From assembly GCA_028698215.1 (NCBI GenBank), contig JAQVDY010000016.1:1-38802 (forward strand): a stretch of DNA of 38,802 nt. The letters are read 5' to 3'. Positions 8,463-12,666 of the stretch are shown here, piece by piece. Within the stretch, counting starts at the first letter, position 1. Each line of letters opens with the position of its first letter. The notes beneath the pieces were generated by a model. It saw only the letters and a program-made list of their open reading frames with translations, did not search any database and was not told where the DNA came from. A program made the position numbers and the translations under genes. The stretch is from Actinomycetota bacterium (GTDB lineage Bacteria > Actinomycetota > Humimicrobiia > Humimicrobiales > Humimicrobiaceae).

Positions 8463-10532
8463 TTGAAATTTATAATATCAGAAAAAGAAATAGCAGCCCG
8501 GCGAATAGCGGATATACTGTCCGGCAGGAAAGCCAAGGAAGAAAAGGTATACGGTGTTCCTACCTACAGGTTCAGCCTGGATGGACAAGAGTACCGGACT
8601 ATAGGCCTGAAGGGCCATATACTAAAAGTGGATTACCCCCGCCAGTATTCCAATTGGTTTAAGGTTGACCCCATGGAGCTTATAGAGGCGGAGATAGAAA
8701 AAATTCCCATACAGAAAAAAATCATACAGGCCTTAAAGAAAACTGCCAAGGAAGCAGATCAAATCATTATAGCTACTGACTACGACCGGGAGGGGGAGCT
8801 TATTGGTTATGATGCCCTTACCCTGGCACAGGAAGTAAACCGGGAGGCTGCGGTCAAGCGGGCTAAATTTTCTTCCATTACTGAAAGAGAGCTGCAGGAA
8901 TCCTTTAATAAATTGGGCAAGCTGGACCATAACCTGGCTTTTGCCGGCAGGGCAAGGCAGGATATAGACCTTATATGGGGAGCTACTTTGACCCGGTTCA
9001 TTTCCCTGGCCTCCTACCAGGTAAAGGATAAGTTTCTTTCAGTGGGCAGGGTGCAGACCCCTACCCTTACCCTGATCGTAGACAGGGAAGAGGAGATAAA
9101 GAAATTTAAGCCGGTGCCTTACTGGGTGATAAAGGTATCTCTTTCTACTGAAGATGGACAGAAGTTTGAAGCCGGACATAAGAAAAAGAGGTTTTTAGGC
9201 AGGGAGGAAGCAGAAGCGGTGTATAACCGTTTGGGAAGCAAGGCCACAGTGGACCATATAAAGGAGAGCCAAAGGAAAATAAAGCCTCCCATTCCTTTCA
9301 ATACCACCGGCTTGATTGTGGCGGCTAATGCTATGGGCTTTACTGCCAACCGTACCATAAATACTGCAGAAAATTTATATATGAATGGATTTATAAGTTA
9401 TCCCAGGACTGATAATACCGTATATCCTTCCTCCATAGATTTAGCTGAGGTTACGGCAGAGATCGGCAAGTCTTCCTATTTTAAGCAGGACTGCGCCCGG
9501 GTACTGGCCCAGAAAAAAATAACTGCTTCCAGGGGCAGGAAAAGATCTACCGACCATCCCCCCATATACCCTACCCTGGCTGCTTCACAGGGCAAGCTTA
9601 CCAGTGATGAATGGAAGATATATGAGCTGATAGTGAGAAGGTTTTTGGCCACCCTTTCTCCCCCAGCTACCATTAAAAGCGTATCAGCCAGGATAAACAT
9701 AAATGATGAAATATTTGTGGCTAACGGCAGCCGTCTTATAGACAGGGGCTGGGTGGACCTGTACCCTTATTACAAGCACCAGGACCTGTTTATCCCTCAT
9801 TTAGAGGAAGGCCAAAAGCTAGCTGTAGACAGCAGGCACCTGGAGGATAAGGAAACTAAACCCCCGGCCAGGTATACCCAGGGCAAACTGGTAGAGAAGA
9901 TGGAAGAGCTGGGTTTGGGCACCAAAGCCACCAGGCACACCATTATACAGAACCTCATAACCAGGGGCTATATCAAGGGCAATCCCCTGGAGCCTTACGA
10001 AAAGGCGGTATCAGTAGTAAAAATGCTTAAAAAACATGCAGAAAGGATATCCAGCCCGGATATGACTGCAGAGCTGGAGATGGATATGGACGGCATAGCT
10101 TCCGGGGAACAAACCCAGGAGCTGGTGGTAAATAAATCCAGGAAGATGCTCAAGCAGGTTATGGCCAGGCTTAAGGATGAAAAGGAAGAAATAGCCAAAG
10201 AGATTAAAAATGGAGTAAAAGAAGATCTTAAAGTGGGTAAGTGCACCCAAGAAGATTGTCCCGGAGACCTGATTATAAGGGTTAGCCGAAACAAGAAGCG
10301 TTTCATTGGCTGTAACGCCTATCCCCAATGCAGAAATACCTTTTCTCTTCCCCAGAAAGGACTTATACTTACTACCAAGGATAAATGCAAGGAATGCGGT
10401 TTTCCGGTAGTTAAGATAATAAATAAGGGAAGGAAACCATGGAACCTTTGCATCAATCCCCAGTGTCCGGCCAAAGATGAAAAGTATAAAACTTACAACC
10501 ATAGCCAAAGAGCTGGCCAAACTGATAGTTGA
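8463..10532 (+). CDS. topA: DNA topoisomerase I, archaeal-type (type IA)
   Basis: This 689-residue type IA topoisomerase relaxes negative supercoils through a 5'-phosphotyrosine intermediate. An N-terminal Toprim domain carries the acidic motif DYDREGE (residues 106-112). The catalytic Tyr is Tyr313 in GFISYPRTDN. The C-terminus has two four-Cys zinc-ribbon-like segments, about 594-625 (CTQEDC...CNAYPQC) and about 640-675 (CKECG...CINPQC). The short spacing between the N-terminus and the Toprim motif, and the opening MKFIISEKEIAARRIADIL, look like the archaeal topA branch rather than the standard bacterial protein. Translation starts at TTG, with AAGGAGA five to six bases upstream. The last 56 bp overlap the fumarase alpha gene. 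Confidence 0.85.
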   Translation: MKFIISEKEIAARRIADILSGRKAKEEKVYGVPTYRFSLDGQEYRTIGLKGHILKVDYPRQYSNWFKVDPMELIEAEIEKIPIQKKIIQALKKTAKEADQIIIATDYDREGELIGYDALTLAQEVNREAAVKRAKFSSITERELQESFNKLGKLDHNLAFAGRARQDIDLIWGATLTRFISLASYQVKDKFLSVGRVQTPTLTLIVDREEEIKKFKPVPYWVIKVSLSTEDGQKFEAGHKKKRFLGREEAEAVYNRLGSKATVDHIKESQRKIKPPIPFNTTGLIVAANAMGFTANRTINTAENLYMNGFISYPRTDNTVYPSSIDLAEVTAEIGKSSYFKQDCARVLAQKKITASRGRKRSTDHPPIYPTLAASQGKLTSDEWKIYELIVRRFLATLSPPATIKSVSARININDEIFVANGSRLIDRGWVDLYPYYKHQDLFIPHLEEGQKLAVDSRHLEDKETKPPARYTQGKLVEKMEELGLGTKATRHTIIQNLITRGYIKGNPLEPYEKAVSVVKMLKKHAERISSPDMTAELEMDMDGIASGEQTQELVVNKSRKMLKQVMARLKDEKEEIAKEIKNGVKEDLKVGKCTQEDCPGDLIIRVSRNKKRFIGCNAYPQCRNTFSLPQKGLILTTKDKCKECGFPVVKIINKGRKPWNLCINPQCPAKDEKYKTYNHSQRAGQTDS

Positions 10533-11343
10533 GGCCAGTTTTAATCTGCCTGCGGATATAATTTCAGCTCTAATTAAGGCCAGAGAAATCGAGACCAGTC
10601 CCACTGCGGTAAAGATACTGGATTGTATCCTGGAAAATGCCCGCCTGGCTCCGGTAGAAAAGCTGCCCCTTTGCCAGGACTGCGGCCGGGTGTATATAAA
10701 TCTGGCAATAGGCCCCGGCATATGCATAGAGCAAAGCCAACTTTTGGAAGCAAAAGTAAATGATGAGGTAGCTAAGGCTTATCAGCAGAACTACCTGCGA
10801 AAATCCATAGTGGACGACCCTTTGTTTGAAAGAAAAAATACACAGGGCAATACCCCGGCTTTGTTGAGCATGGAGCCTTCCAGCCAGCCGGGCCTTACCA
10901 TAGAAGTTAACTTGAAAGGGGGAGGAAGCGAGAACTGTTCTTACCTGTTTATGCTTAATCCTTCCACCCGGCCCCAGGATATAGTTAAACTAGCCACAAG
11001 GACAGTAAGGGAAAATGTGACCAAGTGCTGTCCCCCGGTAATCATAGGCCTGGGAATAGGCTCCGGTGCTTCAGGAGCTGCAGTTTTAGCCCGGAAGGCC
11101 AGTTTCAGGAATCTTAATAAAAGAAACGCCCATCCCCAGTACCGGAGGATGGAGCAGGAGATTTTAGAGGCGGTAAACAGCTTGGGTATTGGGCCCCAGG
11201 GCCTGGGAGGAAAGACTACTGCTCTGGCCTGCAATATAGAGTATGCTCCCTGCCATATGGCCACTTTGCCGGTAGCCCTTTTTTTAGGGTGTCATTCTTT
11301 GCGCAGGGCTTCTTCAAACATATCTCCGCCCCACATGTCATAG
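10477..11343 (+). CDS. fumA: Class I fumarate hydratase, alpha subunit
   Basis: This 288-residue N-terminal subunit of the two-subunit [4Fe-4S] fumarase interconverts fumarate and malate. Diagnostic segments are LPLCQDCG (cluster Cys region), EVNLKGGGSENCS, the Gly-rich GLGIGSGASGAAVLARKA, and the terminal CNIEYAPCHMATLPVA followed by GCHSLRR. The family normally ends just after that CH block, so the final dozen residues (SSNISPPHMS end) are an extension that reads antisense to the beta gene. The ATG lies inside topA (56-bp overlap) with no strong ribosome binding site, suggesting coupling. The beta subunit is on the opposite strand and overlaps tail to tail by 52 bp. The related alpha subunit of L(+)-tartrate dehydratase is an alternative. 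Confidence 0.88.
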   Translation: MKSIKLTTIAKELAKLIVEASFNLPADIISALIKAREIETSPTAVKILDCILENARLAPVEKLPLCQDCGRVYINLAIGPGICIEQSQLLEAKVNDEVAKAYQQNYLRKSIVDDPLFERKNTQGNTPALLSMEPSSQPGLTIEVNLKGGGSENCSYLFMLNPSTRPQDIVKLATRTVRENVTKCCPPVIIGLGIGSGASGAAVLARKASFRNLNKRNAHPQYRRMEQEILEAVNSLGIGPQGLGGKTTALACNIEYAPCHMATLPVALFLGCHSLRRASSNISPPHMS

Positions 11344-11846
11344 GCCACAAACAGGGGAAAGCGGTCCAGGTATATCTCATAGATGGCTTCTGCCCCCAGA
11401 TCTGTATAGGCCACTGGCTTAATACTGGTTACTTTAAGTCCCAGGTAAGCGGCAATTCCCCCTATGGCTACCAGGTATACTGCTTTGTATTTCTTTAACA
11501 GCTCCCGGTAGGCAGTGCTTCGCCTGCCTTTTCCTATCATGACTTTCAGTCCTTGCTTCAGCAGGGGTTCTGTCAGGTTATCCATACGGGCAGAAGTAGT
11601 AGGCCCTACCGCTCCGCTTTTTTTATGGGGAGGAGCAGGTGAAGGCCCTACATAAAAAATGACGGCATTATGCAGGTCAATGGGCAGGGGCTCTCCTTTT
11701 TTTAGGGATGATATCAGGCGCTGATGGGCCATGTCCCTGGCTCCGTATACTTTTCCGCTCAGGCTTACCATGTCACCTGCTTTCAGGCGGGCAATCCCGG
11801 CTTCATCCAGCGGGGCGGTAAGCTCTTTTTGGGGTTTAGTAATCAT
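11292..11846 (-). CDS. fumB: Class I fumarate hydratase, beta subunit
   Basis: This 184-residue C-terminal subunit of fumarase (or tartrate dehydratase beta) completes the active site formed with the alpha subunit. Typical features are ARLKAGDMVSLSGKVYGARDMAHQRL near the N-terminus, GPSPAPPHKKSGAVGPTTSARMD in the middle, and AIGGIAAYLGLKV plus DLGAEAIYEI near the end. Length is normal. It starts inside the 3' end of the upstream lipoprotein gene (11-bp overlap), so it belongs to the minus-strand HAD/lipoprotein/fumB group. Its last 52 bp overlap the 3' end of fumA on the other strand. This arrangement is unlike the usual tandem alpha-beta order. Confidence 0.9.
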   Translation of the reverse strand: MITKPQKELTAPLDEAGIARLKAGDMVSLSGKVYGARDMAHQRLISSLKKGEPLPIDLHNAVIFYVGPSPAPPHKKSGAVGPTTSARMDNLTEPLLKQGLKVMIGKGRRSTAYRELLKKYKAVYLVAIGGIAAYLGLKVTSIKPVAYTDLGAEAIYEIYLDRFPLFVAYDMWGGDMFEEALRKE

Positions 11847-12666
11847 CTAGGTGCTTATCTTTTTTAAAGTAATTGTCATAGGAGTAAAGGGGCTTGCGGG
11901 GGTCTTTACTCTTTCTTCCCCGGCGGGAACTAAAGATAAGGGCAAAAATTATAAACAGTATAAACAATCCTATAAGACCCAGGGCTATGATTAAAAAGTA
12001 AGACAAAAACTTGGTTTTCTTTCCTTCTATTTTGATGTCTTTTTTCTGTCCGTAACCAATATTCCACAGGGCTATATTATTGTCTCCCTGTACATCGGCA
12101 TTGGTCTGGGTGATTTTTACCGGGAACTTAACCTGGTAGGTAATGCTCAACATATTGGGATCGGCCTTGATTAAGTCTTGCAGTCGCCCGTAGTCGGAAT
12201 CCTGGGCGGAAGCTGCAATCAAGCTGGGATCAACCTCCATATCAATATAGTCATAAAAAAAATAGTCGCTATGGAAAAAATAGTCATCAATGCTCATTTT
12301 GGCATAAAACCGGGGGTTGGGTTCCTGGGAAAAATTATCTATGGATACATGCTGTAAGAAATTTATATCCTGGAAAGCGGAAGTAGACCTAAAATGGGTA
12401 TAGTTTTGTTCTTCATAGGTATCTACTTCTCCAGCAGGCAATGCTGCTATAAGCTTCTGGTAAAGGGTCTGGTCTCCGGTCAGCACTACTTCGCCTTTCT
12501 GCAGGTATTCTGTCTTTATGGCCAGGTCCACCACCCTGGTACCGCTGTAATCAGTATTTATTTCGGTATAGATATCAATGATGGTCTGGTCACAGGCAGA
12601 GGCAAATATAATTAGGGCAGATAGAAGGCAAATTAGTGTAATTTTGTATGCCAGGGTTTTTTTCAT
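11836..12666 (-). CDS. Membrane-anchored lipoprotein with C-terminal transmembrane helix (DUF3153/LppM-like)
   Basis: This is a 276-residue surface protein of unknown function. The N-terminus is a lipoprotein signal peptide ending FASAC, with Cys25 as the likely lipidation site; the -3 residue is Ala rather than the preferred Leu. The external domain (about 26-218) is polar and beta-rich in appearance, with opening strands TEINTDYSGTRVVDLAI resembling the DUF3153/LppM group. A hydrophobic segment at about 220-246 is followed by an Arg/Lys-rich tail (SSRRGRKSKDPRKP), which places the C-terminus in the cytosol. The gene sits 58 bases after a HAD hydrolase gene and overlaps fumB by 11 bp. Nothing visible links it functionally to fumarase. 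Confidence 0.7.
   Translation of the reverse strand: MKKTLAYKITLICLLSALIIFASACDQTIIDIYTEINTDYSGTRVVDLAIKTEYLQKGEVVLTGDQTLYQKLIAALPAGEVDTYEEQNYTHFRSTSAFQDINFLQHVSIDNFSQEPNPRFYAKMSIDDYFFHSDYFFYDYIDMEVDPSLIAASAQDSDYGRLQDLIKADPNMLSITYQVKFPVKITQTNADVQGDNNIALWNIGYGQKKDIKIEGKKTKFLSYFLIIALGLIGLFILFIIFALIFSSRRGRKSKDPRKPLYSYDNYFKKDKHLDDY

Follow-up and report, generated by a model that had tools for sequence, protein, structure and literature searches.

The subunits of one enzyme are usually encoded on one mRNA, and overlapping pairs on one strand would balance their output. Same-strand genes with short overlaps encode subunits of complexes more often than expected, which presumably serves coupled translation (PMC10666635). 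Convergent overlaps are a minority among the overlapping genes of prokaryotes, and the possibly real ones over 60 bp are mostly kept only in very close species (PMC2478687). Conserved convergent overlapping pairs of prokaryotes are known, and their origin is usually put down to loss of stop codons (PMC2174442; PMC2478687). The convergent Escherichia coli pair mscL/arfA regulates via overlapping 3′ regions (PMC10070815), and concepts such as the excludon and the noncontiguous operon have been put forward (PMC7154746). Reports of convergent fumarase subunit genes were not found in the open-access literature searched, nor was anything relevant found there on convergent subunit genes generally or on fumarase gene order.

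The locus described here lies in a 38,802-nucleotide stretch of an Actinomycetota genome, the whole of which is termed the window. FumA, the alpha subunit of a class I fumarase, is encoded at 10477–11343 on the plus strand (288 aa, stop TAG), and FumB, the beta subunit, at 11292–11846 on the minus strand (184 aa, stop TGA). Both are intact, with profile coverage near full length. FumA matches PF05681 over profile positions 3–268 of 270 (E 2e-86; 289.9 bits, cut-off 25) and is above the cut-off of NF004885 (294.6 bits, cut-off 276). FumB matches PF05683 over positions 32–204 of 205 (E 7e-51; 173 bits, cut-off 22.2) and is above the cut-off of TIGR00723 (162.2 bits, cut-off 145.15), but is below that of the narrower NF005310 (191.4 vs 238). 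The best match among solved structures is the two-subunit pair 7xky. Cysteines C66, C185 and C272 of FumA, presumably the ligands of the Fe-S cluster, are invariant in 25 aligned sequences that include the tandem outgroups. The L(+)-tartrate dehydratase TtdA/TtdB was considered and rejected, as the scores are below the cut-offs (NF006084, 144.3 vs 365; NF006082, 94.2 vs 264). A search of the whole genome gives a single match for each of the two families, namely FumA and FumB, and no second pair in tandem. Because no class II fumarase is matched above cut-off anywhere in the taxonomic family of the window, FumA/FumB is the only candidate fumarase found, its activity being predicted. Predicted models have a mean pLDDT of 89 for FumA and 87 for FumB. 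The extreme tails are of low confidence (FumA 281–288, mean 64; FumB 181–184, mean 59), which fits, without proving, the presence of dispensable extra residues at the two C-termini. In three other loci of the data set (L103, L086 and L104), the PF05681 match of FumA is split in two although the frame stays open, which suggests that sequence has been inserted around profile position 75–95.

The two reading frames overlap tail to tail by 52 bp, both stop codons included (11292–11343; phase 123:213). The strands and the length of the overlap given in the first-pass annotation are thus correct, as is its statement that the end of alpha is read antisense through the C-terminus of beta; the portion involved is not the last dozen alpha residues, as it had stated, but the last 16 and the stop, and the same holds for FumB. 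In this phase the third codon positions of the two genes are opposed, and therefore a stop codon on one strand is possible only opposite a Tyr, His or Gln codon of the partner. The TGA of FumB is the antisense of TCA at 11292–11294, which lies within the plus-strand TGT-CAT (11290–11295) encoding Cys272-His273 of FumA. The TAG of FumA (11341–11343, plus strand) is read antisense to the point at which the Ala and Tyr codons of FumB meet (GCC-TAT), within the AYD motif.

Overlaps in related genomes show the same properties. An overlap of 43 or 52 bp in the identical register is present in 16 genomes, and in 16 of 16 the FumB stop is TGA, antisense of FumA TGT-CA(T/C), the Cys-His that includes the third Fe-S cysteine. 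The FumA stop is read antisense to a Tyr codon of FumB in 14 genomes and to a Gln codon in two, and the sole difference between the 43- and the 52-bp overlaps is which FumB residue supplies this stop. The third base of the Cys272 codon is fixed because the FumB TGA is read from its antisense. The equivalent codon is TGT in all 16 genomes with the overlap, compared with 49 of 132 other FumA Cys codons in the same genomes (Fisher p 6e-7, kinship ignored). In 11 genomes of the family that lack the shared-register overlap, this Cys codon is TGT in five and TGC in six (vs 16/16 TGT: Fisher p 0.0016, kinship again ignored). The codons thus show an overlap that the genetic code holds in place and that would be hard to undo.

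The taxonomic family of the window, Humimicrobiaceae (f1), is represented by 35 genomes from 15 genera and is the sole family of its order in the genome set. FumA and FumB are on one contig in 26 of the 35 genomes, and 25 of these 26 pairs converge, in 12 genera. The 16 overlapping pairs come from seven genera, and because they all keep one register the overlap is more than a chance occurrence; two conserved genes here form a conserved convergent overlapping pair in several species. Overlap is absent or lost, with the enzyme retained, in seven genomes (G004, G005, G006, G017, G028, G029 and G033). The one exception to convergence is G008, which has a tandem fumarase pair (L098, 7839–9250) with 30–35% identity to the pair of the window. 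None of the other genes of the block described below is present within the 17 kb read around it. This distant tandem pair looks like a replacement of the convergent pair.

Some genomes provide natural breakages of the overlap. In L105 (G025; 9600–11183), a ribbon-helix-helix-like and a PIN-like open reading frame, which together resemble a toxin-antitoxin pair, are situated between FumA and FumB. The overlap DNA has been duplicated, and each gene thus retains its own 3′ end. The copy on FumA reads TGC, and the FumB 3′ remnant, antisense to FumA, runs past the old stop. The gap between convergent FumA and FumB is filled by different genes in three genomes (L085, 840–4280; L086, 6600–8950; L091, 5680–6800). 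By sequence reading, the gap in G029 contains a mechanosensitive-channel-like gene, that in G006 an antitoxin/PIN-like pair, and that in G005 ATPase-like and hydrolase-like genes. In the non-overlapping G017, G028 and G029, the tail of FumA (TCR-AAM or AGG-ATA) is like what the FumB motif DIFE gives when read antisense, which looks like descent from overlapping ancestors.

Outside the family the direction of the genes is different. The first-pass annotation held that alpha and beta genes normally point the same way, and this is borne out by a sample of 397 genomes from the phylum, where alpha and beta positions were paired from the matches listed. All 91 scorable linked pairs outside the family among those matches are co-directional with alpha first; 65 are spaced by less than 400 bp and 26 by 400–3000 bp. 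Left out of the 91 are 34 cases without beta among the matches listed and two with the genes on different contigs. FumA and FumB are in tandem in the other two families of the class (f2 and f3), where a gap separates them, and relatives from other phyla have them in tandem wherever both genes could be seen.

The neighbourhood of the fumarase genes is informative in regard to how the arrangement arose. Directly upstream of FumA, with an open reading frame overlap of 56 bp, is a gene for an archaeal-type DNA topoisomerase I (TopA; 8463–10532, plus strand), which passes the cut-offs for NF005555 and TIGR01057 and falls short of that for the bacterial TIGR01051. Upstream of FumB, overlapping it by 11 bp, is a gene for a predicted lipoprotein or membrane protein (MemP; 11836–12666, minus strand), for which the only profile match is a sub-threshold one to LppM. 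TopA is upstream of FumA throughout the family and in phylum outgroups. Almost every family locus long enough to show it has MemP adjoining FumB, and no match to MemP was obtained at the fumarase locus of the outgroups. The common block in Actinomycetota outgroups (L158–L175), all on one strand, is TopA-Mdh-FumA-MFS-FumB-Tmk-HolB-PSP1. Fifteen outgroup loci have TopA, FumA and FumB on the same strand in that order, followed nearly always by Tmk, HolB and PSP1, and three further loci start at FumA and continue like the other 15. In most of these loci, by sequence reading, the gene between TopA and FumA encodes malate dehydrogenase and that between FumA and FumB an MFS transporter. The malate dehydrogenase C-domain family gives no match in most Humimicrobiaceae genomes. 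Where contigs of the family are long enough, TopA and FumA are followed by FumB and MemP on the opposite strand, with Tmk, HolB and PSP1 beyond, again on the strand of TopA; in the window, other genes separate MemP from Tmk. FumB has kept its position between FumA and Tmk with its orientation reversed.

These data point to an ancient inversion of fumB in place, with an overlap that persists by mutual coding constraint, and we regard this as the best explanation and a probable one. At the TopA…Tmk locus, in the family's common ancestor or close to it, fumB, alone or with a neighbour, would have been inverted from co-directional to convergent, and gap closure would then have left the 3′ ends of the two genes overlapping. 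In the resulting phase each stop is read antisense to conserved residues in the partner, Cys272-His273 of FumA for the one and Tyr or Gln of FumB for the other. Point mutations would rarely shorten such an overlap, since a new stop needs a Tyr, His or Gln codon on the other strand. The overlap may thus have persisted passively in many lineages, with others lacking it or having lost it by gain of sequence between the genes. The local inversion proposed in the first-pass annotation is hence the best-supported event, placed by synteny between FumA and Tmk. The suggestion that it kept the genes touching does not hold, as an MFS gene usually intervenes in syntenic outgroups and a gap in the class-level ones; the contact between FumA and FumB came with or after the inversion. 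It should be pointed out, as evidence against the inversion in place, that the tandem pairs of f2 and f3, the closest class-level outgroups, lie outside the TopA–Tmk block, so that the ancestral orientation at the locus has to be taken from more distant lineages. The same position could also have been reached if the operon had lost FumB and the gene had then been inserted again in the opposite orientation, either from elsewhere in the genome or horizontally. Some sampled betas from outside the phylum indeed resemble the FumB of the window more (up to 55%) than those of f2 and f3 do (42–45%), and MemP next to FumB is new at the locus. We nonetheless consider re-insertion improbable, in that FumB is still between FumA and Tmk-HolB-PSP1 as in phylum outgroups, and inversion in place needs one event. 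The window comes from a draft assembly of 63 contigs, and the first-pass annotation had raised the question of a misassembly; an inversion peculiar to this genome was considered as well. The same arrangement in 24 other, separately assembled metagenome-derived genomes of the family, with a common register and codon lock, rules both out, and the likelihood that remains for an artefact or a recent private inversion is negligible.

The number of times the overlap arose was approached with a tree built from RpoB and six neighbour proteins, with the trait genes left out. The overlap is present in two deep clades and missing from a third, as well as from two lineages that stand alone; the base of the tree is not separated. 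By counting alone the minimum is three changes, a number reached equally by two gains or by one gain followed by losses. In AU tests one shared gain was not rejected when the overlap clades were constrained to group with G017 and G028 (p 0.297), nor was a grouping of the two overlap clades alone (p 0.116). The identical register argues for a single origin, without proving it.

This raises the question of whether the overlap was selected as a regulatory device, in which complementary mRNA 3′ ends couple the levels of the two subunits by antisense cleavage, mutual stabilisation or polymerase collision. Conservation over seven genera would be in keeping with such a role, and mscL/arfA and the excludon and noncontiguous-operon concepts offer precedents. 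On the other hand, the overlap is dispensed with in the seven genomes listed above, which keep the enzyme, its length and register are explained by the code lock alone, and on neither strand does a terminator-like hairpin keep its place among relatives. A bidirectional terminator, searched for as a hairpin with a T-tract at a place common to the window and its relatives, was not found. Hairpins resembling terminators are present in both genes of the window, but their places differ in relatives, and mean best hairpin energies are slightly below those of shuffled sequences (–8.0 vs –6.4 and –7.2 vs –6.1 kcal/mol). No sequence signs of regulation at the overlap, whether a conserved terminator or other, were found. 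A selected regulatory role is thus unlikely. A bolder form of the idea, in which the code-locked 3′ end is itself a selected coupling device, and cross-control by the complementary mRNA ends gives convergent genes an operon-like balance of subunits, must be looked at as a speculation with rather poor prospects. The overlap is best read as being maintained mainly through mutual coding constraint. The subunits probably come from separate transcripts, TopA-FumA for alpha and MemP-FumB for beta, as the genes are on opposite strands behind different neighbours. Assembly would follow translation, and any 3′-end interference between the two genes, as envisaged in the first-pass annotation, would be tolerated.

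While the family diversified, the two obligate parts of this enzyme were encoded by convergent genes in at least 12 genera, in many cases with overlapping frames, and the pair shows how a genome can carry convergent subunit genes. Conserved residues of one protein here dictate the stop codon of the other, and the example is a clean one, for which natural breakages such as L105 serve as controls. FumA/FumB is a good pair in which to measure transcription interference, if this is of importance in bacteria.

In relation to known systems, FumA/FumB has the same two subunits and the same three invariant cysteines as the two-subunit class I ([4Fe-4S]) fumarase of the 7xky type. Elsewhere in the phylum this enzyme is encoded in tandem with alpha first (91 of 91 scorable pairs among the matches listed), whereas here the genes are convergent and overlapping. 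As in the unidirectional pairs described (PMC10666635), overlapping neighbours encode subunits of one complex, but those pairs have translational coupling on one mRNA, which is impossible for convergent genes. With mscL/arfA (PMC10070815) the locus shares convergence and complementary 3′ regions. There a 3′ UTR lies over the coding sequence of the partner and regulation is demonstrated, whereas in FumA/FumB coding sequence lies over coding sequence and any regulation is putative. The conserved convergent pairs (PMC2174442; PMC2478687) are likewise convergent in phase 123:213. FumA/FumB differs from them in that the two genes encode subunits of one enzyme, and its overlap of 43–52 bp is kept across seven genera, as against mostly very close species for the possibly real convergent overlaps over 60 bp.
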